From Planctomycetota bacterium (GTDB taxonomy: Bacteria > Planctomycetota > UBA1135 > GCA-002686595), in NCBI GenBank assembly GCA_016872795.1, contig VGYZ01000001.1, positions 62,001-126,000 on the forward strand: 64,000 nt of DNA. The letters run 5' to 3'. The notes under the pieces are model-generated. The model was not told the origin of the DNA, searched no databases, and saw only the letters and a list, made by a program, of their open reading frames with translations. This document shows, piece after piece, positions 2,208 to 32,943 of this stretch (the first letter of the stretch is position 1; each line of letters begins with the position of its first letter). The translations under genes were made by a program, and so were the position numbers.

Positions 2208-2762
2208 TTGAGAACCACGCTTCAGAAGGTGGCTGCCGGCGATGCCGCGGCGGTGCAGGAGTGCATCGATCAATATGGCGGACTCGTCTACACCCTCGCC
2301 CGGCGCATGTGCCCGGCGGGTGCCGAGGTCGACGACGCCGTGCAGGAGGTCTTCATCGAGCTGTGGCGCAAGGCCGAGCGCTACGACCCCGGCATCGCCG
2401 AGGAAGCGGTGTTCGTGGCCATGGTCACTCGGCGGCGACTGATCGACTTGCAGCGCCGTCTCGCGCGCCATTCCGGGCAGGAGGAGCTGCCCGAGTCCCT
2501 CGATTCCGCGGGCGAGGGCGCCGAGGCGGCCGTCGAGCTTCGCGACAGCGCCGCGGTCGCCGAGCGCGCCTTCCGCGAGCTGCGCCCGGAGCAGCAGAAG
2601 ATCCTGCGCCTCGCGGTCTGGGACGGGCTTTCCCACCAGCGCATCTCCGCAGTGACCGGCCTGCCGCTCGGCACGGTCAAGACCCACGCCCGCCGCGGCC
2701 TCCACCGCCTGCGAGAGCTGCTCCAGACCAGCCAGAGCCCGGCCAGTGGAGGTGCGTCGTGA
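2208..2762 (+). CDS. ECF-type RNA polymerase sigma factor
   Basis: A 184-residue sigma-70 family protein of the ECF class. Region 2 is near residues 15-80 (AAVQECIDQYGG, DDAVQEVFIELW). Region 4 is near 118-170, with a helix-turn-helix (LSHQRISAVTGLPLGTVKTH). The start is a TTG at 2208; no better start exists, and the protein then begins about where ECF factors normally do. Its stop overlaps the GTG start of the next gene, which encodes an RskA-like anti-sigma factor, so the two form a typical translationally coupled regulator/antagonist pair. The stimulus cannot be read from the sequence. Confidence 0.93.
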   Translation: MRTTLQKVAAGDAAAVQECIDQYGGLVYTLARRMCPAGAEVDDAVQEVFIELWRKAERYDPGIAEEAVFVAMVTRRRLIDLQRRLARHSGQEELPESLDSAGEGAEAAVELRDSAAVAERAFRELRPEQQKILRLAVWDGLSHQRISAVTGLPLGTVKTHARRGLHRLRELLQTSQSPASGGAS

Positions 2763-3628
2763 GCGACCGAATCCACGGCCGCGATCGGCTCGTAGAGCTC
2801 TACGGGGATCGTGCCGTGTTTGGACTCGACCCAGAGCAGGAGCGGGAGCTCGCGCGGCTGCAAGGCGGCGATCAGACCGGTTCGTGGAATGAGGCTGAGG
2901 AGCTCGAGCAGGCCGCCGCCGCCATCGCGATGCTGTTCGCCTCGCGCCAGATCCAGCCGCTGCCGTCCGAGTTGTGCGCCCGTCTCGAGGGCGGGGCACG
3001 CGCCTACTTCGTGGCTCACACCGAGTCGGCCCGCCCGCACCGGTCGACGCCCGTCGGTGTCGCTCCGACGCTCGCTCCAGCGCCCCCAATTGAGTCGCCC
3101 ACGCTCGGGTCGCGCAGGCTCGAGTCGGTCCGACCGGCTTCGCGCTGGCCTCTCGCAGCGCTCGCCGCCGCCGCCAGCGTGGCCGCGATCGTCGGCTGGT
3201 GGCCCCGCCCCGTGGAGACGCCGGCGCCGCAAGTCGCCGTGACCCCCGCGCCCGCCGAACTGCGCTCGAAGCTGCTCGGCGAAGCGGGCACGCTGTTCGT
3301 CGCCGCGCAGGGCACCGACTTCGCCAAGGGCGCATCGGGCGATGTGGTGTGGCAGCCGCTCGCACAGTCCGGCTGGATGCGCCTCGTCGGCCTGCCGGTG
3401 AACGACCCGAAGGTCGAGCAGTACCAGCTGTGGATCTTCGATGAGGCGCAGAAGCACCCCGTCGACGGCGGCGTGTTCAATGTCAGCGCCAACGGCGAGC
3501 TGCTCGTCCCGATCGACGCGAAGCTGCGCGTGGAGAAGCCCACGCTGTTCGCGATCACGATCGAAAAGCCCGGCGGCGTCGTGGTCAGCGACCGCGAGCG
3601 CATCGCCTGGGTCGCCAAGCCGATCTGA
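2759..3628 (+). CDS. Anti-sigma-K factor RskA-like membrane protein
   Basis: A 289-residue partner of the preceding ECF sigma. The N-terminal ~90 residues are the cytoplasmic sigma-binding part (LVELYGDRAVFGLDPEQE...). A Pro/Ala-rich linker follows, then one membrane helix near residues 127-147 (WPLAALAAAASVAAIVGWW). The outer part is an RskA-type domain ending with a beta-rich region (QLWIFDE, GVFNVSANGELLVPIDAK, FAITIEKPGGVVVS). No HxxxCxxC zinc motif is present, which agrees with the RskA type rather than the zf-HC2 type. The GTG start at 2759 gives a GTGA overlap with the sigma gene. Regulation is probably by regulated proteolysis of this anchor, as known for the family; nothing here names the protease. 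Confidence 0.88.
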   Translation: MSDRIHGRDRLVELYGDRAVFGLDPEQERELARLQGGDQTGSWNEAEELEQAAAAIAMLFASRQIQPLPSELCARLEGGARAYFVAHTESARPHRSTPVGVAPTLAPAPPIESPTLGSRRLESVRPASRWPLAALAAAASVAAIVGWWPRPVETPAPQVAVTPAPAELRSKLLGEAGTLFVAAQGTDFAKGASGDVVWQPLAQSGWMRLVGLPVNDPKVEQYQLWIFDEAQKHPVDGGVFNVSANGELLVPIDAKLRVEKPTLFAITIEKPGGVVVSDRERIAWVAKPI

Positions 3629-5787: not shown

Positions 5788-8700
5788 TCAGCGCAGTCGC
5801 ACTCGGACGCGATCGGCCTCGTCGACGCGCTGTGCGAACTCGACGAAGGCGGCAAAGTCCGACGCCGCGATCACCTGCGCCGGCAAGTGGAACTCGCGCA
5901 CCACGGTGAAGCCGCGCGCGGACGCATCCTCGATGGCAAGCCTGTAGCGGCCGCCACCGAATTCGAGCAGGACTTCGGGATGCTCGCTCGCGAGCGAGCG
6001 GCCTTCGGGCAGCTCGAAGCGCGCGCGCACGCTGCCCACGCTAGCGCGCTGCAGCAGGAATGGCAGCTTGCGCTCGCCTTCGCCGGCCGCGATGCGGCCG
6101 AGGTCGAGCGCGGGGAACGGCAGCTTGCAGCTGAATTCACCGCTGCGCGCGTCGAACAGCGTCTTGTGCGTGCCCTTGGCGCGGAACACGACCGGCGTGG
6201 CCTCGTCGTCGAGTCCCTCGAGCGAGTAGTCGCCGAGCGAGATGCCCGGGACGATGCGCGAGATGATGCCCGTCACGGTGCGCTTCATCTGCGCCTTCGC
6301 AACCTCGCGCAGTTGCTCTTTCACGGCGAAGCCCATGTTGCCCGTGAACTCGAGCGCGATGTCGAACTCCGCCGAGCGTTCGAGTCCGACGCGCACCGTG
6401 AGCGTCGTGCGCTCGCCGGGGCGCTCGCTCCAAGCGGCTTCGGGCATGGCGAGCCACTCGCCGCGCGTCGCGGAGAAGGCCTCGGCCCTGGGCGATGCCG
6501 CGATCATGCAGCCGTAGGGCAGCGTCTTGCGCGAGAGATCGCACCACACTTGCTTCGCGTCGTGCGGCTTCACGAGCACGAGCAGCTGGTTGGTCCAGCG
6601 CGAGGCGTCCGCCAGCTCGCGTTCCGGCGCGGGATCCGCGGCGGGCTCGACGGAGCGTGACCAGACGAGCTCGTGCTCGATGCCGACCGCGCGCAACAGG
6701 GTCGCGTACAGCAGCATGGGGTTGCCCGAGCGCGTGAGCAGCGCCGAGAGCGCCGACGCGCGCGAGAGCGGCTCGCGCTTGTCGAGCGACTCGGTGACGA
6801 GCCGGTGCAGCGCACGCGCGCGCTGTTCCTCGGTCTCGGTGCCCTCGCAGGCGAGGCTCGCCGCTTCGATGAGCTGCGGAGCGAGTCGCGTAGGGACGAC
6901 GAGCTCGCTCTCGAGCTCGCGCTCGATCCTCGCCATGTCCTGCGGCCCGACGAAGGTGACCCACGGCAGGAACCAAGACTGCGGCGGGGCTCCGGGCTCT
7001 GTGACCACGCGGTCGACATCGCGCAGCGTGAAGATGTGTACGACGCGCTCGCCCTCGTCGAGAACCTCGTGCTCGCCCGTGAAGTTCCGCTGCACGAGCT
7101 CGAGCTGGAGCGACTTGGGGATGGAGATCACATAGCGCGAGAGGAAGTAGGGCGCCTGCGTCGAGGCGAAGTACCACTGCGTCGTGCGCGTGCGCGAGCC
7201 AGCGCCGCCGGAGGCGAAGCCGCGCGCGACGATGCGCACGGCGTCGCCGGGCTCGAGCGCGGGCATGACATACTCGCCGTCGACGAGCACGGGCTCGTAA
7301 GCCTTGCCATCCAAGCGCTTGAGCGTCTCGATCGAGAGCATGTCGCCGCTCGGCCGCTGCTTGCCGAGCGCTTCGCAGCCCTCGAGGTCGCGCGCGACCT
7401 CGTGCGACAGGGTCCACTGCTCGAAGGCGCCGTCCTCGAAGACATGCACGACGGCGATGTCGAGCGCGCGCACGATGTGGTCGCTCCAGCGAGACGGATC
7501 GAAGGTCGCGAGCTCCTGAGCCGGGTCGATGGCGAAACGGCTGAATGTCGCTGCAGCCTGGTTCTCTTCCCCGAGCCCGGCGAGCCGCGCGCGCGCCTCG
7601 CGATCCGACGGGGAGCATTCGAGGGCAATACGCAGCTGCGCGACCTCGCCGTCGCGATCGCCGAGCTGATGCGCCAGATCGGCGCGGCGCAGCGGGAAGT
7701 GGCTCTCCTGCGGAAAGCGCTCGGCGAGCCTCAGCCATGTGGCGTCTGACTCGCCAGTCATGCCGATCGTTGCGAGCGTCCGCGCAAAGCCCGCGGCCGC
7801 ACCGGCGTCGCCGGTGACGCGCGCGAGCGAGCGTTGGGTCTCGATGCTCTCGTTGCGCTGGCCAAGGCGCATCTCGAGCTCGCCGAGCTCGCCGAGCGCG
7901 CCGAGGTCGAGCCGACCGACAAGCTGCGCGAGCCGTACATCGCGGGCGCGCGCGAGGAAGCCGCGCCGCGCCCAGTGTTCCGCCGCGGCCGAGAGCACGC
8001 GCGCGCTCTCGCTGCGCAGCTCCACGGCGCCCTTCAGGACCGCCTCCGCGCGCACTTCGAGATCGAGTTCCCCATAGAGGTCCACAAGAGCGAGCCACGG
8101 CGCGGGCCCAGCGCGCTCGCCGTCGAGCCCCTCCAGAGCGCGCACCGCTTCTTCCTGCCGGTCCTCGGGGCCGAGGATGCGCGCCATCGCGACCTGCAAT
8201 CCGACATGCCCGGGCGCGAGCGCGAGCCCAGCCTCGACGAGCTCGCGCGCACGCGCGCGACGCCATGTTTCCGGAAGCGGCGAGCGTGCACCGTAGAGAT
8301 CGGCGGCGAGCGCCATGATCTCGACCGACTCGGGCGCCATCGCGAGCGCCGAGTCGATGTGCGACAGGCCTTCGACCATGCGCCCATCGCGGAACTTGGC
8401 GAGCCCGAGCAGCGCCTCGGAGTGTGCTCCGCGCGGATCGACCTGCTCTAGATGCTCGATTGCTCCGACGAGCAGCTGGGCGGACGCCGGAGCGGCGCGG
8501 CCTTCGCCAAGCGGCGATCGAGGATCCGCGCTCGCCTGCCACGGCAGCGCGCGACCCGATAGGTCGCGCAGGCGCGCGGCGAAGTCGTAGGCCACGCCGA
8601 GGGGCAGCGAAAGCAGTACGCGATTGTGGCCCTTGCGCCACACGCGCGCCTCGCGCCACGCGAGACTGCGTTCCGCCGAGAGAAAGTCGATCTCGCGCAC

Positions 8701-24496: not shown

Positions 24497-24848
24497 CGCT
24501 GGCGAAGCCGCGCTCCTCGAGCGCCGCGGCGAGCCGCTCGGGCTGGTCGCCCTGCACGACGATCGAGGTGCCTTCGACACGCGTGCCCGTGCCGAGCGCC
24601 TTCGCGAGCTCCTTGGCGAGCTTCTCGAGCGGATGTCCGGAGAGCCCCGGACCTTCCGCGAGCGTGACGGCCTTGCCGCCGCGCCCCGCACGCTCGCGGC
24701 GCACGGTGACGCGCCCGGTGTAGCGCTTCTGCGGCGGAGCAGGCTGCACCGCACTCGCCGCAGGCTGCGGCCCCGGTGGGAGCGGGCCGAGCTTGTCGCG
24801 CAGCGCCGCGAACGGATTCGCAGCGGGCTTCGGCGCCTCGCCGCTCAC
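24480..24848 (-). CDS. SUI1/eIF1-like translation factor (YciH family)
   Basis: A 122-residue protein. The first ~45 residues are Pro/Ala-rich; the C-terminal ~75 are a SUI1 domain (VTVRRERAGRGGKAVTL, EKLAKELAKALGTG, SIVVQGDQPERLAAALEERGF). Bacterial SUI1 proteins bind the 30S subunit and can influence initiation fidelity; the precise role here is unknown. The GTG start at 24848 overlaps the stop of the upstream M1 peptidase gene (GTGA), so translation is probably coupled. The 3' end overlaps the convergent gene by 17 bases. Confidence 0.88.
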   Translation of the reverse strand: MSGEAPKPAANPFAALRDKLGPLPPGPQPAASAVQPAPPQKRYTGRVTVRRERAGRGGKAVTLAEGPGLSGHPLEKLAKELAKALGTGTRVEGTSIVVQGDQPERLAAALEERGFASVTRGN

Positions 24849-27238
24849 TGGCCGCCTTCCTTCGCGGGCTCCTGCTTGTCCTTCTCCGCCACCTTGGCCT
24901 TCTCCGCGTCGCGCGCGTCCTGCATCGGGTTGCGCGCCCCCGAGGGCGCCGCGCCGCCGCGACCGCGTCCGCTGCCGCCCGAGCGCAGCTGCAGACGCGT
25001 CTCGGCGAGCTCTTCCGGCCAGATGTTGTTCACGAGGTCGATGTCGGCGGTCTCGAGGTGCGGATCGAGCACGAGCTTCACGAGCTTTTTCTCGCTCGCG
25101 AAGTGCTTGGTGACCTTGTCCGCGCCCTTGCGCCACACGGTCGCGGGCACGCGCAGCTCCTCGGTCGTGCCGTCCTCGTAGTGCGCCTCGAGCACGATCG
25201 GCATCACCAACTCGCCGACTTTCTTCACATCGACCACATAGAACGCGAGCTGGCTTTTGAGCAGATCGCGCTGCTTCTCGTCGAGGTCCTTGACGAGCTT
25301 CTCGTAGTCGCTGACATCCTTCTCGGTGATGTCGAGCTCGTCGAATGTGTTGTAGAAGTCCACGAGCTCGGGGAACGCGTCGAGGCGCGTCTTCTGCCCG
25401 GCGTTGTTGCGCTCCGCCAGCGTCTCCGGTGCGCCGTCGCGCTTCGCCTTCGCGAGCGGTTTCTCGAGCGCGGGGTCGCGCGAGTCGATGCGGTACACGC
25501 GGATGCGATCGACGGCGAGATCGCACGCGCCCGTCGAGTAGAACCAGCCGCGCCAGAACCAGTCGAGGTCGACCGCGCTCGCGTCCTCCATGCTGCGGAA
25601 GAAGTCCGCGGGGTGCGGACGCTTGAACTGCCAGCGGCGCGCGTACTGCTGGAACGAGAAGTCGAACAGCTCGCGGCCCATCACGCTCTCGCGCAGCACA
25701 TTGAGCGCCGTGGCGGGCTTGGCGTAGGCGTTGCTGCCCATGTTCAGCACCGAGTCGGCCGCCGTCATGATCGGCACCTGACCGTCGCTCTTCATGTAGC
25801 CCGTGATCCGCGCGGGCTCGCCGCGGCCCGAGGGGTAGTCCGTCTCCCACGCCTGCTCCGCCATGTACTGCAGGAATGTGTTGAGGCCCTCGTCCATCCA
25901 TGTCCACTGGCGCTCGTCCGAATTGACGATCATCGGGAAGTAGTTGTGGCCGACCTCGTGGATGATCACGGAAATCAGCCCGTATTTCGTGCCCTTCGAG
26001 TAGGTGCCGTCCGCCTCCGGCCGCGGGCCGTTGAAGCAGATCATGGGGTACTCCATGCCGCCGACCGGGCCGTTGACGGAGATCGCGGTCGGGTACGGAT
26101 ACGCGAAGGTGTGCTTCGAGTAGATGTCGAGCGTGTGGCAGATGGCGTGCGTGGAGTACTTGCTCCACAGGGGCTCGCCTTCCTTCGGGTAGAAGCTCAT
26201 CGCCCACACCTTGCGCCCCTCGACCTCGTGCAGCAACGCGTCCCAGATGAACTTGCGCGAGCTGGCCCACGCGAAGTCGCGCACATTGTCGGCGCGGAAG
26301 GTCCATGTGCGCGCGCCCTGCGGCTTGTGCGACTCGTTGTCCTTTGCCTCCTCGGGCGTGACGATGAACACCGGCGTCTCGGAGCTCTCGGCCTGCGCGA
26401 GGCGCGCGCGCTGGGCCTCGCTCAGAATGTCGCCGGAGTTCTGCAGCGTGCCCGTCGCCGCGACGACATGGTCGTCGGGCACGGTGATGCTGACGACATA
26501 GTCGCCGAACTCCAGCGTGAACTCGCCGCCGCCGAGGTACTGCTTGTGCTGCCAGCCGTCGACATCGGTGTAGGCGGCGAGGCGCGGGAACCACTGCGCG
26601 ATCTCGTAGATCGAATTGCCGTCTTTTTCGAAGCGCTCGTAGCCCGTGCGGCCGCCGACCTCGCGCGAGTTGTTGATCGCGTAATTCCAGTCGATCGAGA
26701 ACGAGACCTGCGAGCGCGGCTCGAGCGGCTGGGGCAGGTCGATGCGCATCATCGTGTCGACGATCACATGGCGCAGGCCGCCGCCGGCGGAGTCCTTGAC
26801 GGCCGTGACTTTACAACCGCCATCGAAGTCCTTGCGGCGCAGCATGCGCTGCACGGACTCGAAGCTCGCGCCCTCGAACTCGGGGCTGAGCGCGGTCAGG
26901 ACTGCGTGCGACTCCGGCGAGAACAGGTTGGGGTCGAGCTGCACCCACAGGTACGCGAGCCGATCCGGCGAGTTGTTCGTATAGGTGATCGTCTCGCTGC
27001 CGGTGAGGTGCGCGCGCTCGTCGTCGAGCGCCACCTCGATCACATAGTCGACCTTCTGCTGCCAATACTCGTGTCCGGGCGCGCCCGACGCCGTGCGGTA
27101 GGAGTTGGGCGTCGGGAGCACCTCGGTCAGCTGGCGGAACGGGTCGGGGACCGCGCTGTCCTCGACGCCGAAGGCGTAGCCGAGTCCGAGGAGCGCGAGG
27201 GTGGTCGCCACGAGGCACAGGCGGGGCATCGAGGTCAT
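24845..27238 (-). CDS. M1-family zinc metallopeptidase (aminopeptidase), exported
   Basis: A 797-residue gluzincin with a signal peptide (residues ~1-22). The N-terminal beta domain is followed by the exopeptidase-type GGMEYP segment near 396 and the zinc site HEVGH near 428, with the third ligand Glu in MDEG about 19 residues later, so the active site is complete. The C-terminal region carries a long Lys/Glu-rich, Gly/Arg-containing tail (GGSGRGRGG, then KAKVAEKDKQEPAKEGG) that is not part of the peptidase fold. It probably trims peptides in the periplasm. The start at 27238 gives MTSMP; a second ATG lies nine bases further in. It is coupled to the SUI1 gene. Confidence 0.92.
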   Translation of the reverse strand: MTSMPRLCLVATTLALLGLGYAFGVEDSAVPDPFRQLTEVLPTPNSYRTASGAPGHEYWQQKVDYVIEVALDDERAHLTGSETITYTNNSPDRLAYLWVQLDPNLFSPESHAVLTALSPEFEGASFESVQRMLRRKDFDGGCKVTAVKDSAGGGLRHVIVDTMMRIDLPQPLEPRSQVSFSIDWNYAINNSREVGGRTGYERFEKDGNSIYEIAQWFPRLAAYTDVDGWQHKQYLGGGEFTLEFGDYVVSITVPDDHVVAATGTLQNSGDILSEAQRARLAQAESSETPVFIVTPEEAKDNESHKPQGARTWTFRADNVRDFAWASSRKFIWDALLHEVEGRKVWAMSFYPKEGEPLWSKYSTHAICHTLDIYSKHTFAYPYPTAISVNGPVGGMEYPMICFNGPRPEADGTYSKGTKYGLISVIIHEVGHNYFPMIVNSDERQWTWMDEGLNTFLQYMAEQAWETDYPSGRGEPARITGYMKSDGQVPIMTAADSVLNMGSNAYAKPATALNVLRESVMGRELFDFSFQQYARRWQFKRPHPADFFRSMEDASAVDLDWFWRGWFYSTGACDLAVDRIRVYRIDSRDPALEKPLAKAKRDGAPETLAERNNAGQKTRLDAFPELVDFYNTFDELDITEKDVSDYEKLVKDLDEKQRDLLKSQLAFYVVDVKKVGELVMPIVLEAHYEDGTTEELRVPATVWRKGADKVTKHFASEKKLVKLVLDPHLETADIDLVNNIWPEELAETRLQLRSGGSGRGRGGAAPSGARNPMQDARDAEKAKVAEKDKQEPAKEGGQ

Positions 27239-27534
27239 GGGGCGGGGTCCCGGGGCAGGGTTGCGGAGAGCAGAGGTTACGGCCCGCAGCGGGCGCCGGG
27301 GCGGAGAGAGCGCGGCTCTGGGGATCCCCGCCGGCCGCGCTCCCGTCCCCGATCCGGGCCCGCTTCAAGCCTTCCAACGGACCTTCGAAAGATCTTCAAG
27401 TCCTTTCTGGACATGGGTTTATGGCGGTCGATCCCGGCCGCCCTCCCGCCCGGTCCGCGCCCCGTCCGTAGGCCGGTTCGGAATAGGAAGCGCTCGCGGG
27501 CGTCGATAGGCTCGCCGTGCGATCCGTCTCGCCC
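27239..27534. promoter_or_regulatory. Divergent intergenic region before the sigma/PilM operon
   Basis: About 296 bases between the M1 peptidase start and the ECF sigma start. It contains a less G+C-rich stretch around 27375-27425 with short palindromes (TTCGAA, AGATCT, and GTCC...GGAC). This is the likely position of the promoters, but I cannot define hexamers or an autoregulated ECF promoter by eye. Confidence 0.35.
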
Positions 27535-28149
27535 ATGGAACTTGCCCCGAAGGACGACCTGCGCCTCGTCCGCGAGAGCCTCGCGGGCAACCAGCTCTCC
27601 TTCCAGCTGCTCGTCGAGCGCTACGAGACCCGCATGTTCGCGCTGGTGCGCCACTACACGCGCAACCCGGTCGAGATCGAGGACATCGTGCAGGACACAT
27701 TCCTCAAGGCCTTCACGCGCCTGCCGACCTTCCAGGAGCAGTCGTCGTTCTATACATGGCTGTGCCGCATCGCGATCAACACGGCGCTCGACTTCCAAAA
27801 GCGCCTCGGACGCAACCCGGTGCGCGCGGTCGAGGACCCTGAGCTGGCGCTCAGCCCGGACCGCATCGAGGGCTCGCAGCCGACCTCGGGCCGCATCCCG
27901 GCCCCCGACGCGCGCCTCGAGCGCGACGAGGTCGCCCGCATCACGCAGGGCGTGCTCGGGGAACTGCCCGAGATCTTCCGCACCGTGCTCGTGCTGCGGG
28001 AGTTCGAGGAATTGAGCTATCAGGACATCGCCGATGTGCTCGGCATCTCGATCGGCACGGTGGAATCGCGCCTGTTCCGTGCCCGCGTCCGCTTCAAGGA
28101 GCGGCTGATGGCGCTGCACCCCGAATTCGGGGAAGACTGGACTTCATGA
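27535..28149 (+). CDS. ECF-type RNA polymerase sigma factor (RpoE-like)
   Basis: About 204 residues. Region 2 spans ~15-85 (LLVERYETRMFALVRHYTRN, EDIVQDTFLKAFTRLPTF, WLCRIAINTALDFQK). A variable linker follows, then region 4 near 140-195 with a helix-turn-helix (LSYQDIADVLGISIGTVESRLFRAR). The ATG at 27535 is used; a GTG at 27517, with AGG at a fair distance, would add six residues. Its stop overlaps the ATG of a zinc-finger anti-sigma gene (ATGA). The operon continues into PilM- and PilO-like genes, suggesting that this sigma responds to, or drives, an envelope assembly system (inference). Confidence 0.95.
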   Translation: MELAPKDDLRLVRESLAGNQLSFQLLVERYETRMFALVRHYTRNPVEIEDIVQDTFLKAFTRLPTFQEQSSFYTWLCRIAINTALDFQKRLGRNPVRAVEDPELALSPDRIEGSQPTSGRIPAPDARLERDEVARITQGVLGELPEIFRTVLVLREFEELSYQDIADVLGISIGTVESRLFRARVRFKERLMALHPEFGEDWTS

Positions 28150-28727
28150 CCATGGAATTCTCCTGCCAAGAAGCCGTGCCGATGATCGGCGCCTACCTCG
28201 ACGGCGAGCTCTCGCCTGCGCGCGCCGCGCTGCTGCGGCCGCACCTGCTCGAATGCTCGGCCTGCCGCAACGCGGCCGCCGACGGGCGCTCGCTGCAGCG
28301 CTGGTTCGCGCCGCTGCGCGAGAGCGCCGAGTCGGGCGCGCTCGCCGTGGCCGTGCCCTCGGGCTTCTCGGCCCGCGTCGCGCGCCGCGCCTTGGCCGGC
28401 GACCGCGGCGAGCGTGGAAATCGGGGCGACTGGACCGAGCGCGCCGCCTCGGCCCGCGAAGAAGGCCGCATCCTGCCGTTCGTGCTGCGTCTCACGGCCG
28501 TGGCCGCCGCCGCCGCCCTGCTGTTCGCCCTCGGCCTCCAGCTCGCCTCGCGCCCGCAGTCGACCAACCTCGCCGCCGATGACCGCGCGGCCCTGCCGCT
28601 CGTACAGATCCAGAGCGAGCTCGACCGCCTGAACGGCGTCGCGCCGACCCCGGCCGCGCCCGCTCCTCAGGAGTCCGCCGAGGCCGGCAGCCCGCGCGGC
28701 AAGAAGCGCCCGCAGCCCGCGCGATGA
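28146..28727 (+). CDS. Zinc-finger (zf-HC2) anti-sigma factor, membrane-anchored
   Basis: A 193-residue protein. The N-terminal anti-sigma domain has the zinc-binding pattern H-x3-C-x2-C in PHLLECSACRN near residues 33-42, preceded by the usual GAYLDGELSPA. One membrane helix lies near 113-135 (LRLTAVAAAAALLFALGLQL). The outer part is short and Pro/Ala/Lys-rich. It should hold the ECF sigma encoded just before it. The start overlaps that gene by four bases, and a second ATG lies two codons in. The zinc site would allow a redox response, as in ZAS-type anti-sigmas, but this is not shown here. Confidence 0.92.
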   Translation: MTMEFSCQEAVPMIGAYLDGELSPARAALLRPHLLECSACRNAAADGRSLQRWFAPLRESAESGALAVAVPSGFSARVARRALAGDRGERGNRGDWTERAASAREEGRILPFVLRLTAVAAAAALLFALGLQLASRPQSTNLAADDRAALPLVQIQSELDRLNGVAPTPAAPAPQESAEAGSPRGKKRPQPAR

Positions 28728-29107
28728 GCGGCGTGCGGCTGTGGATCGGCCTCTTGGCGCTGTGCTGCTTCGCAGCCGGGCTGGGGGCCGGCGTGCTCGT
28801 GAGCGAGTCCCGCGCCGGGGAAGTTCCGCGCGGGCTCGAGCCCATGGGCGACTACCGCGCCGCGGTGGTTGAGCGCTTCGGCCTCGAACCCGCGCGCGAG
28901 CGGCTGTTCGGCGAGGTGCTGCGCAACTACCAGCAGTCGATCGACGAGACCCGCGAGCGGCTGCTCGCCGAGCACCGACCCGAGCTCGAGCGCGAACTTG
29001 CCGAGATCGGCGCTCGCTATCAGGCCTACATTCGCGATCATGTAATCCCCTCGGCACGACGCGCGGAGTTCGACGCGCTCTCGGCCGACGGTCGCACGAT
29101 CCAGTAA
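28724..29107 (+). CDS. Small membrane-anchored periplasmic protein, CpxP/Spy-like
   Basis: A 127-residue protein. One N-terminal helix (residues ~5-25, LWIGLLALCCFAAGLGAGVLV) is followed by a highly charged helical domain (YRAAVVERFGLEPARERLF, YQQSIDETRERLLAEHRPELERELAEIGARYQAYI). The size and helical hairpin resemble Spy/CpxP or heavy-metal-sensor proteins often encoded beside ECF/anti-sigma pairs. The LTxxQ motif typical of Spy is not visible. It overlaps the anti-sigma gene by four bases (ATGA), so it is a likely accessory sensor or chaperone of the sigma pathway (inference). Confidence 0.7.
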   Translation: MSGVRLWIGLLALCCFAAGLGAGVLVSESRAGEVPRGLEPMGDYRAAVVERFGLEPARERLFGEVLRNYQQSIDETRERLLAEHRPELERELAEIGARYQAYIRDHVIPSARRAEFDALSADGRTIQ

Positions 29108-29117
29108 CGAGAGATAC

Positions 29118-30857
29118 ATGGCGAGAACCTGCGGCATCCGCATCGGCCCGCGGCGCTTCGAGATAGTGGTGCTCGATGGCAGCCCCAAGAAGCACCGCAT
29201 CGTGGCCTACAAGAGCGGCGAGTTTCCCACCGGCGGCGCAGACCCCGAGGGCGATGTCGTGGCCACGCTGAAGGCGGCGGCGAGCGAGCTCAAGGTGCCC
29301 GAGGACGCGATCGCGATCGCGGTCGACACCGGCACGGCGGCCTTCCGCACGCTCAAGCTGCCCTCGCTCGACGAGTCCAAGGTCGACGAGATCATCAAGT
29401 TCGAGGTCGAGGGCCAGCTGCCCCAGTGGAACATCGACGACATCATCGTCACATTCCTGACGCTCGACCGCACCGACAAGGAGACGAGCCTGCTCGTCAC
29501 CGCCGTGCCCAAGGCCACGCTGCGGCGCGAGATCGACGCCTGCACCAAGGCGGGCATCGAGCCGCTCGAGGCCGAGCTCGAGGCCGCCGCGATGGTCAAC
29601 GCCGCCCTCGCCAGCGGCGTGTGCCGCGTGGACGAGGCGCAGGTGCTCGTGCACATCGGTGACACTTCGACCGCTGTGGTGCTCATCGACGGCGGCAAGG
29701 TGCGCCAGATGCGCGCGATCCACATCGGCGCCCTGACCCACGAGCCCGTGGCCGCGCCGAGCGGCGACGCGCCGCCCGCCGAGGACTCCACCGAGCCCGC
29801 GCCGCCGCCGCCGCCCGCGGACCCGATCGAAGCCCAGCGTCGCCAGGAGCAGGCCGTCTCGCGCATCCGTCGCGAACTCGGCCGCACGCTCTCGGGCGCG
29901 CGCACCGCCCACCCGCTCAAGGCCGTCTACATCTGCGGCTGGGAAGTGCCCAACCTCGTCGGCACGCAGGTGCTCGACACGCCCGTGTACGAGCTCGACG
30001 CCTTCGTCGAGGAGTCCGGCAAGCCCGTGGAGGGCGCGGCCCCGCTCGTCGTCGCCTACGGCGCGGCGCTCGGCATGCTCGGCGGCGGCGCGATCCGCTC
30101 GTCGCTGCGTCGCGAGGAGCTCAAGTACACCGGGACCTTCGAGCGCCTCGAACTGCCGATCGCGGTCGCCGTGATGCTCGCCGTCATGTGGCTGCTCGTC
30201 TTCAATCTGTTCGAGAGCGATCGCCTCGCTGCGGCGGACTCGAGCATGTTCCGCTGGCTGCAGAGCAACAAGAACTTCCTCGTCAACGACCCCAAGGCCG
30301 GCAAGCGCGGCAATCTCCAGAAGCCGTGGCCCGAGCTGCAAAGGCTCGTCGAAGACGCCTCGAGGAAGGACAACCCGCTGCTCGCGTCGAACCAGTGGTC
30401 GCGGCTCGACCAGCTGCGCCAGATCGAGCGCGCGCTGCTCTTGCGGCAGGACAAGCTCAACAAGGAGCTCGGCAACACGGGCGAAGTGAAGCAGCCGCAG
30501 TCGGTGCTCGAGGCGCTGACGCTCGTCACCAACACGATGGTGGACATGGGCGACGCGCTCGGCCGCATTTCGATTCGCACCATCAACGCCAACTACGTGC
30601 CGGCGCGCACGGGCACGAACGACCTCGTCACGATCACGCTCAGCCTCTCGTTCCACAACGACGAGGGCGCGATCGCGGCCACGCGCTCGTTCGAGGCGCT
30701 CAAGACCGAGCTCGAGCGCCAGCCGTGGGTGACCGAGGTCGCGGCGCGCAACTCGAAGGAATTCCCGGATGGCAAGGGCATTTACAGCGACGGCTACACC
30801 ATCACCTGCGACCTCTCGAAGGCCGCGCCGGCGAGCGCGAAGAAGGAGGGTTCCTAG
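29118..30857 (+). CDS. PilM/GspL-like assembly-platform protein (actin-like domain fused to a PilN-like part)
   Basis: A 579-residue bitopic protein. The cytoplasmic ~320 residues form an actin-like PilM fold (GIRIGPRRFEIVVLDG, AIAVDTGTAAFRTLKLPSLDESKV, VLVHIGDTSTAVVLIDGGKVR), interrupted by a proline-rich insert near 215-240. A membrane helix lies near 347-365 (LPIAVAVMLAVMWLLVFNLF). A periplasmic PilN/GspL-like domain follows. This is the inner-membrane platform of type IV pilus or type II secretion machines. Here PilM and PilN appear as one chain, as in GspL. The gene lies 10 bases after the CpxP-like gene and is immediately followed by the PilO-like gene. No ATPase, pilin or secretin gene is seen nearby. 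Confidence 0.8.
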   Translation: MARTCGIRIGPRRFEIVVLDGSPKKHRIVAYKSGEFPTGGADPEGDVVATLKAAASELKVPEDAIAIAVDTGTAAFRTLKLPSLDESKVDEIIKFEVEGQLPQWNIDDIIVTFLTLDRTDKETSLLVTAVPKATLRREIDACTKAGIEPLEAELEAAAMVNAALASGVCRVDEAQVLVHIGDTSTAVVLIDGGKVRQMRAIHIGALTHEPVAAPSGDAPPAEDSTEPAPPPPPADPIEAQRRQEQAVSRIRRELGRTLSGARTAHPLKAVYICGWEVPNLVGTQVLDTPVYELDAFVEESGKPVEGAAPLVVAYGAALGMLGGGAIRSSLRREELKYTGTFERLELPIAVAVMLAVMWLLVFNLFESDRLAAADSSMFRWLQSNKNFLVNDPKAGKRGNLQKPWPELQRLVEDASRKDNPLLASNQWSRLDQLRQIERALLLRQDKLNKELGNTGEVKQPQSVLEALTLVTNTMVDMGDALGRISIRTINANYVPARTGTNDLVTITLSLSFHNDEGAIAATRSFEALKTELERQPWVTEVAARNSKEFPDGKGIYSDGYTITCDLSKAAPASAKKEGS

Positions 30858-31424
30858 ATGAACCTCAAGGGAATGCTCGGCGCGATGAGCCTCGCGCGCT
30901 GGATCATGGTCGTCGGCGGCATCGCCGTCGTCGGGCTCGGCTACAACGGCTGGAAGTTGCACGCGGAGCGCGCGGCCATCGACCTCGCGCTCGCGCCCGG
31001 CGGCGATGTCGAGCGCATCTCGGGCAAGATTCAGCTGCTCGGCAAGCAGATCAGCAAGCTGCAGTCCGACGCCGATCGCGAAGGCCTGAGCGGTCAGGAT
31101 GACCCGTCGCTCTACTTCCGCGGCTTCGCCTCGGATCCCAACGTGCGCCTCGGTCAGGTCGAGATCGCCGGCCCCAAGGTCCAGACGATTATCAAGGGCA
31201 CCGAGGACCTGCAGTACACGATCCGCCCCCAGAACGACACCGGCGGCGCGCCGCGCGACCGCATCGTCAACTACATGTACCTGCTCGAGTCGAAGTCCCG
31301 CCGCGTGCGCGTCACGGGCCTGCTGCTCAATCCGGTGCAGAAGCTCAAAGAGTGGGAGAACTCGAACGACATGTGGCAGTGGTCGATCGAGCTGACCTCG
31401 CGCGCCAAGGTCGACGCCAAGTGA
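30858..31424 (+). CDS. PilO/GspM-like assembly-platform protein
   Basis: A 188-residue bitopic protein with one N-terminal helix near residues 13-31 (RWIMVVGGIAVVGLGYNGW). A short helical part (VERISGKIQLLGKQISKLQSD) is followed by a beta-alpha domain (VRLGQVEIAGPKVQTIIKG, RIVNYMYLLESKSRRVRVTGL). The topology matches PilO/GspM, which pair with PilN/GspL in the periplasm. Its ATG follows the PilM-like stop with no gap. It is the last gene of the sigma-factor operon and is followed by a weak stem-loop before a convergent gene. Confidence 0.7.
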   Translation: MNLKGMLGAMSLARWIMVVGGIAVVGLGYNGWKLHAERAAIDLALAPGGDVERISGKIQLLGKQISKLQSDADREGLSGQDDPSLYFRGFASDPNVRLGQVEIAGPKVQTIIKGTEDLQYTIRPQNDTGGAPRDRIVNYMYLLESKSRRVRVTGLLLNPVQKLKEWENSNDMWQWSIELTSRAKVDAK

Positions 31425-32514: not shown

Positions 32515-32943
32515 ATGAGTAACGCTCAATTCGATCAGCACATCCGTGACCACATCAACTCCTTCGTCGAACAGTTGAGCGCGCTCGTGCGCAAGGCCGC
32601 CGTCGAGGCCGTCCGTACGGCGCTCACTGGCGATGCCCCGGCCGCCGCTTCGGTCCGCCGCGGTCCGGGCCGCCCGCGCAAGAACGCGGCCGCGCCCGCC
32701 GCCGCCCCGGCCAAGAAGGCCGGGAAGCGCAAGCGCGCGAAGGTCTCGCCGGCCGCTCTCGCCGCCGCGGGCGCCAAGGTGATGGAGTACCTGACCAAAC
32801 GCCCGGGCCAGTCGCTCGAGCAGATCGGCAAGGGCCTGAACACGCCCACCGCGAACCTCAAGCTCCCGATCAAGGCGCTGCTCGGCGGCAAGAAGCTCAA
32901 GACCACGGGCCAGCGCCGCGGCACGAAGTACTCGGTCAAGTAG
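32515..32943 (+). CDS. Basic DNA-binding protein with AT-hook and C-terminal winged-helix-like domain
   Basis: A 142-residue, very basic protein. Residues ~1-40 form an amphipathic helix (HIRDHINSFVEQLSALVRKA) likely to mediate dimerisation. An AT-hook-like core follows (RRGPGRPRKN, near 45-54), then an Ala/Lys-rich flexible stretch (PAKKAGKRKRAK). A C-terminal domain near 85-142 resembles a winged helix (VMEYLTKRPGQSLEQIGKGL, then a Lys/Arg-rich wing). It is probably a nucleoid-associated or global regulatory protein. The ATG at 32515 starts this domain order; the open frame upstream lacks coding character. It is followed by a strong stem-loop. Confidence 0.78.
   Translation: MSNAQFDQHIRDHINSFVEQLSALVRKAAVEAVRTALTGDAPAAASVRRGPGRPRKNAAAPAAAPAKKAGKRKRAKVSPAALAAAGAKVMEYLTKRPGQSLEQIGKGLNTPTANLKLPIKALLGGKKLKTTGQRRGTKYSVK

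Follow-up and report, generated by a model that had tools for sequence, protein, structure and literature searches.

In Vibrio cholerae, the extracytoplasmic function (ECF)-type sigma-E, a general envelope-stress sigma factor that lies outside any gsp operon, is said to raise expression of the type II secretion system (T2SS). CnrYXH-type modules unite an ECF sigma factor, a membrane anti-sigma factor and a membrane-anchored, helical Metal_resist-like protein. Here we describe an operon from a freshwater planctomycete in which such a gene trio is followed by two genes most readily interpreted as gspL and gspM, which would encode platform proteins of a T2SS whose remaining genes lie elsewhere. 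The operon occupies positions 27,535 to 31,424 of the window, by which we mean the whole 64,000-nucleotide stretch of contig VGYZ01000001.1 that was analyzed, and its genome (G000) comprises 3.78 Mb on 162 contigs and is 91% complete.

Control of a T2SS by an ECF sigma factor is already known. Passages of PMC2729926 describe VreI of Pseudomonas aeruginosa, which likewise raises T2SS expression, namely that of the adjacent hxc genes; they place these genes immediately downstream and have the sigma factor work with VreR and VreA. In the planctomycete, in contrast, the sigma operon holds gspL and gspM together with genes for a zf-HC2 anti-sigma factor and a Metal_resist-like protein, and the T2SS genes are distributed over four loci. 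No TonB-type transducer as in VreI/PUMA3 cell-surface signalling is found among the seven genes scanned (farther neighbours were not scanned), and the anti-sigma factor is of the zf-HC2 and not the FecR type. Passages of a review (PMC8103513) report that in Xanthomonas citri the type VI secretion system is under the control of EcfK; an ECF sigma factor again commands a secretion machine, but the machine is a different one and the sigma factor is kinase-activated. The passages of this review that mention planctomycete ECF groups name no such T2SS regulon, and the term 'planctomyc' is absent from the main text of the survey by Denise et al. (PMC6668835). Among the open-licence papers listed by our searches, no title or beginning of an abstract revealed a report of gspL and gspM within an ECF operon. 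What is new is a dispersed T2SS that, judging by its promoters, is tied together by a sigma operon carrying gspL and gspM.

A sigma-factor operon with two probable platform genes

The five genes are labelled by their order along the operon, and they follow a predicted promoter.

27478..27506, forward strand: ECF-type promoter, GGAATA-15 bases-CGTC, predicted to be autoregulatory
27535..28149, forward strand: SIG, ECF RNA polymerase sigma factor with Sigma70_r2 and Sigma70_r4_2 domains
28146..28727, forward strand: ASIG, zf-HC2 anti-sigma factor with one hydrophobic segment at about residues 109-131
28724..29107, forward strand: CPX, membrane-anchored helical Metal_resist/Spy-like protein with an N-terminal hydrophobic segment, candidate periplasmic sensor
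29118..30857, forward strand: PILM, probable GspL-type platform protein, so assigned from PilM structure profile matches, synteny and a tree
30858..31424, forward strand: PILO, putative GspM-type platform protein directly after PILM, with an N-terminal hydrophobic segment and then a periplasmic part

SIG and ASIG overlap by 4 bases, as do ASIG and CPX; 10 bases separate CPX from PILM, and PILO follows with no gap. These gene coordinates agree with the order and spacing given in a preliminary description made from the sequence alone, and Pfam matches bear out the ECF sigma factor (Sigma70_r2, 4.8e-18; Sigma70_r4_2, 2.1e-16) and the zf-HC2 anti-sigma factor (5.1e-12) that it named. Sigma regions 2 and 4 and the adjacent anti-sigma factor with a membrane segment fit the ECF sigma plus zf-HC2 type. 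RpoE is the second-best NCBIfam match of SIG (140.5 bits, under the cut-off of 236). The proposed CpxP/Spy-like nature of CPX has weak support. PF13801 (Metal_resist) is matched by 8 of the 29 orthologues scanned (best 4.4e-5) and LTXXQ by one of them, but the window's copy matched neither in the family scan, and the Spy structure 3oeo (E = 0.03) ranks level with unrelated chains. By analogy with CnrYXH-type modules, CPX may act as an envelope sensor; unlike in those modules, the predicted targets are secretion genes, and a link to metal is not part of our case.

PILM is composed of a PilM-like cytoplasmic domain (residues ~1-330), a hydrophobic segment (~344-365) and a periplasmic part that extends to residue 579, and PILO has 188 amino acids. 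A PilM-like cytoplasmic domain, a single transmembrane segment, a periplasmic part and a single-segment partner encoded next are also features of canonical GspL-GspM pairs. The planctomycete pair differs in that the PILM sequence is far from Pfam T2SSL and in that both genes lie inside a sigma operon.

The operon is conserved. A PILM match is present in 38 of the 41 genomes searched, G000 being counted in both numbers, and those close relatives that carry names are Planctomycetota metagenome-assembled genomes. Gene order was compared in 37 order-level regions, with genes called in each, and in 20 further regions that are more distant within the phylum. Loci omitted before counting were L068 (no PILM call), L069 (only a 270-amino-acid PILM fragment), L182 (no gene call), L064 and L173 (contig ends), and L187 (no PILM call, and showing only PILO and gspK/C-like pieces). 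SIG is found upstream of PILM on the same strand in 34 of the 37 order-level loci, so the gene order is far beyond chance; one of the other three ends at a contig edge and two have no usable gene calls. Among the distant loci, SIG is upstream in 15 of 20, and the remainder comprises one cut locus, one without a gene call and three in another context (L187, L188 and L190). Intergenic gaps are short in most loci, and the outer neighbours vary. The gene immediately preceding SIG is ribBA-like in 14 of 21 same-family loci, and downstream of the operon a carB-like one is frequent; these labels, like PilB/PilT/PilD and 'lipoprotein', were given by eye from the sequence with no family search behind them. 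PILM has no match in G005, G011 and G030. The absence in G011 and G030 is likely an assembly gap, because the ribBA-like gene is unmatched there too; it is present in G005 (78% complete).

Some neighbours of the operon differ among lineages. L042-L044, as well as L041 and L045, contain two extra same-strand genes after PILO (~315-390 and 295-330 amino acids), which occur neither in the window nor in L077. Within the genus, a divergent gene for an M1-family peptidase (window 24845-27238) lies upstream of the operon, and the ribBA-like gene takes this place in most other loci of the family.

PILM and PILO in the context of a T2SS

PILM had earlier been described as PilM/GspL-like. It matches TIGR01175 (pilM) with 5.9e-16 and 58.4 bits (cut-off 133), Pfam T2SSL (PF05134) weakly with 17.3 bits (cut-off 25.5) and the Amuc_1101-type model NF045709 with 48 bits (cut-off 650). 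Its profile matches the PilM structures 3jc8 (2.6e-30), 2ych and 5eou, and at E <= 0.1 its orthologues match PilM_2 in 28 of 34 cases and T2SSL in 27 of 34. AlphaFold models from five-sequence alignments had a mean predicted local distance difference test score of 43.6 for PILM, which is poor except for residues ~460-570, and of 43.8 for PILO, too poor to use. Foldseek matches of the PILM model to PilM (E ~1e-5, template modelling scores < 0.2) echo the sequence result.

Orthologues of the pair hold the L and M positions of T2SS loci in two other planctomycetes, which speaks against the earlier suggestion that the pair belongs to a different machine. L190 (G122) contains gspK, a small gene in the gspC position, PILM and PILO, divergent from gspE-F-G-H-I-J, and an edge fragment that was read by eye as the end of GspD. 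L188 (G139) contains gspK, a gspC-position gene, PILM and PILO in a row; gspI and gspC of these loci were assigned by position. This K-C-L-M context is a further likeness to canonical T2SSs; the window pair itself does not occur in it. Among the window-genome proteins compared, the PILM proteins of L190 and L188 match only that at window position 29118 (74 and 69 bits, respectively), and they show no match to the type IV pilus (T4P) or Amuc_1101-type PilM of G000. L190 GspE prefers contig C114 of G000 (664 versus 424 bits), L190 GspF and GspG also match C114 best, and the GspK proteins of L190 (14 bits, weak) and L188 (35 bits) match contig C32. At least four further contigs (in G045, G055, G198 and G266) carry a GspG above the TIGR01710 cut-off ~5-18 kb from PILM.

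In a tree of 51 sequences, 31 PILM proteins from ECF operons and the two from K-C-L-M loci form one group (33/33; SH-like approximate likelihood-ratio test/ultrafast bootstrap 99.9/100). The T4P PilM group (100/100) and the group typified by contig C69 (99.7/100) are both separate. The two K-C-L-M proteins nest among those from ECF operons, which alone are not a separate group, and a FastTree tree of PilM-like proteins gives the same grouping. By these computed comparisons, PILM is an orthologue of the PILM proteins of T2SS loci. The position of PILO suggests that it is GspM, and the PILO profile alone recovers the PILO-position proteins of L190 and L188 (21 and 37 bits). Co-occurrence of PILM with GspG over 246 genomes was dropped for lack of discrimination, because every genome has some match.

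The preliminary description had noted that no pilin, secretin or ATPase is nearby, which holds for the surrounding genes when the gene list is read by eye, and had called the platform an orphan, which does not hold for the genome. Contig C114 carries gspDEFGHIJ (D, E, F, G, H and J by Pfam, I by position) and stops after gspJ, and its GspG passes TIGR01710 (106 versus 88.85 bits). Contig C101 encodes a PDZ protein with GspC (NF041515, 5.5e-11) as its best NCBIfam model, and C32 encodes a protein whose best model is GspK (NF037980, 1.4e-12), each under the curated cut-off. Together with the operon, the T2SS genes of G000 are therefore located at four loci, namely C, D-J, K and L-M. In G017, G022, G010 and G011 the contig continues past gspJ, and genes for K, L and M are absent there.

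G000 encodes three clear PilM-like proteins, which are PILM, a T4P PilM on C104 (above the TIGR01175 cut-off and beside a secretin) and an Amuc_1101-like protein on C69 (114 bits to NF045709, under the cut-off of 650), plus a weak match on C43. PILM does not stand in a type IVa PilMNOPQ context, and the gene list around it shows no FHA/pseudopilin cluster.

Two other pilus- or secretion-like arrangements were observed. The C69 cluster (L122, 5722-17884) encodes an FHA-like protein (by eye), the Amuc_1101-type PilM-like protein, proteins of 262 and 903 amino acids, two that resemble pseudopilins and a giant one that resembles GspK, without an ATPase or secretin; similar clusters are L125, L128, L132, L134, L137 and L139. 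On C32 (L124, 10316-11686), a small secretin-like gene immediately precedes gspK and no further T2SS gene adjoins; this pair is also found in G022 (L127).

A promoter motif common to the operon and dispersed T2SS genes

The regions upstream of SIG share a motif with the consensus GGGAAKA, ~15 bases, CGTC. The dyad GGAA-N17-CGTC is present in 25 of 45 regions (the near-identical L044 and L077 were left out of the 47); in five shuffles no dyad occurred in more than 7. GGAA-N16-18-CGTC occurs in 38 of the 47 full-length regions, versus an average of 0.9/47 in shuffles. Without the last 40 bases, this relaxed motif is found in 26/47 SIG regions, versus 10/533 control upstream regions. The strict GGAATA form occurs in 23/47 SIG regions and 0/533 controls. 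This motif suggests that the promoter of the operon is autoregulated. An ECF promoter belonging to PILM itself was rejected, as just 1 of 35 loci has the motif within 150 bases before PILM. The platform genes are likely to be co-regulated with SIG, as the preliminary description had supposed.

When a weight matrix built from 32 SIG sites was applied to other loci, it picked out gspD, gspK and gspC in G000, and in relatives it picked out gspD. The family scan, for which 26 genomes were searched per gene, covered 23 of 27 gspC loci (L246 starts inside the gene, and L247-L249 are weak paralogues), 24 of 30 gspK loci (L274-L279 begin within it) and 22 of 30 gspD loci (L302 and L303 are truncated, and L304-L309 are partial or other secretins). 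One gspC upstream region is just 130 bases long. A score of at least 14 is reached upstream of gspC in 17/23, gspK in 17/24 and gspD in 15/22 loci, versus 0/69 reverse strands and 1/69 coding stretches used as controls. The best site contains the core GGAA[GT][AG]-N14-16-CGT[CA] in 19/23 gspC, 22/24 gspK and 20/22 gspD regions. In the other direction, a matrix derived only from T2SS sites, in genomes other than G000 and G004 of the genus, finds its best site in the 64-kb window at 27478 (score 17.1). Look-alikes outside a promoter position were discarded, at 15122 of L136 (inside gspE) and at 3678 of L079 (on the strand opposite a gene).

Genome-wide, the strict pattern GGAAKA-N15-CGTC had 23 matches versus 23 in the reversed control in G000, 38 versus 43 in G010 and 24 versus 17 in G018, and a large regulon defined by this pattern was rejected because matches and control are about equal. 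Four of the 23 matches in G000 are the promoters of SIG, gspK, gspC and gspD, whereas 0.005 matches are expected by chance in four 400-base windows. All four promoters are among the G010 matches, and three (gspC, gspD and gspK) are among those of G018.

Most of these matches were examined for genes downstream (20/23 in G000, 21/24 in G018 and 30/38 in G010); those outside this examination include gspC, gspD and gspK in G000, gspD and gspK in G018, and SIG, gspD and gspK in G010. A gene starts within 350 bases downstream in 3/20, 7/21 and 9/30 cases, respectively. The three genes in G000 are SIG, a gene of 338 amino acids and a gene of 418 amino acids in L342, and the sites of the latter two are inside another called gene. 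Three homologous gene pairs lie behind the motif across genomes, namely L342/L363 (G000 and G010), L346/L366 and L347/L376 (both G018 and G010). L346 has tetratricopeptide repeats and L347 has HEAT repeats, no repeats were seen in L342, and genes of these three types begin like those of lipoproteins (by eye). The lipoprotein-like genes at L342:1245-2498 (C88 of G000), L346:1336-2499 and L347:237-1181 are candidate regulon members, such as secretin helpers.

Proposed mechanism and alternative explanations

The operon is likely to serve a dispersed T2SS as its control and platform unit, and it is likely that its sigma, anti-sigma and sensor module regulates itself and switches the T2SS on. ASIG would hold SIG at the membrane, and the membrane-anchored CPX probably tunes ASIG and SIG from the periplasmic side, in the manner of CnrX- or Spy-type systems. 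Released SIG would transcribe its own operon, so that GspL and GspM are made, and, through the common promoter motif, the gspD, gspK and gspC units. Because the promoter signature of SIG also marks scattered parts of the T2SS, a single switch probably activates the entire apparatus, and the products of the operon and of gspD, gspK and gspC would form one working machine. Of the two guesses in the preliminary description, a stress-regulated secretion complex is closer than an anchoring complex.

Several observations weigh against this interpretation. The scores of GspL, GspK, GspC and GspE are all under curated cut-offs. The size, N-terminal hydrophobic segment and position of PILO agree with the earlier PilO/GspM-like label, but neither the window's copy nor any of 33 aligned members has a GspM or PilO family match. 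In one-against-one comparisons the PILO-position proteins of L190 and L188 do not match PILO, and their gspC-position proteins do not match the C101 protein. Among the matches listed, genomes without any PILM match can have a strong GspG, so the pair is not universal for T2SSs in the phylum. Scores fall below 14 in 6/23 gspC, 7/24 gspK and 7/22 gspD regions and are as low as -0.2 (G021 gspC), 3.6 (G020 gspK) and 4.6 (G013 gspD). In the two order-level T2SS loci scanned outside the family, a site precedes gspG in G030, and none is in promoter position in G031. Across 16 kb of L190, where SIG was not called next to the T2SS, no site reaches a score of 11, and the one site in L188 (15.5, at 8454) falls within the beginning of its PILM. 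Promoters of the GGAA...CGTC type are common for ECF sigma factors, and another such factor could read a similar motif. Also, the regulon may extend beyond SIG and the T2SS, because conserved lipoprotein-like genes carry the motif as well.

This last point leads to the alternative that SIG is a general RpoE-like regulator of envelope stress, with the T2SS as one of many targets and GspL and GspM riding along as envelope proteins. We consider this possible but much less likely. It draws support from the RpoE match of SIG and from the motif-preceded homologues L346/L366, L347/L376 and L342/L363. However, the strict pattern is about as frequent as its reversed control, and among 498 genes (39 family loci and the window) the 29 with the motif comprise 20 SIG genes, most of which belong to the training set, 8 T2SS genes and 1 other, so that 28 of 29 are SIG or T2SS genes. 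A variant of the proposed mechanism is a feedback checkpoint, in which CPX and ASIG, made together with GspL and GspM, would monitor platform assembly or blocked secretion. SIG would then stay released until enough of the machine is built, by a logic like that of the flagellar sigma/anti-sigma switch. Such a checkpoint is rather unlikely; if real, it would be kept over much of Planctomycetota.

The PilM-type domain of PILM, and the fact that G000 has both a T4P PilM (C104) and an Amuc_1101-type cluster (C69), might instead indicate that PILM and PILO are the platform of one of these pilus systems. This is very improbable, since both systems have PilM-like proteins of their own in separate, well-supported groups, and the tree led us to reject a T4P role for PILM. 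Four f5 genomes without an above-cut-off T4P PilM still keep PILM, and G000 shows no motif in promoter position at its T4P or C69 loci. We give even less credence to a genomic accident that left gspL and gspM beside a sigma operon without regulatory meaning. The ribBA- and carB-like neighbours, too, persist at many loci with no evident functional connection, but the short gaps, the common strand and the recurrence of SIG upstream at order and phylum level while outer neighbours change are not readily accounted for by accident, nor is the motif that unlinked gspD, gspK and gspC have in common.

With SIG as the predicted sigma factor for the gspD, gspK and gspC promoters, the operon illustrates how one dedicated sigma factor could hold together a multi-locus machine. 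It also assigns candidates for GspL and GspM, which are easy to miss in scattered T2SSs, and offers, for protein secretion, a regulon and promoter signature that can be tested; our searches of the open-licence literature listed no study of secretion control in this phylum. The motif could serve as a sequence tag for further regulon members, possibly including secreted substrates.

Other genes in the window

Two further features of the window were seen by eye. A gene at 32515-32943 encodes a protein of 142 amino acids that is rich in Ala, Lys and Pro, contains a GRPRK stretch and resembles histone H1 or an AT-hook nucleoid protein. At 2229-3628, another small gene that looks like an ECF sigma factor (177 amino acids) is followed by an overlapping gene of 289 amino acids.

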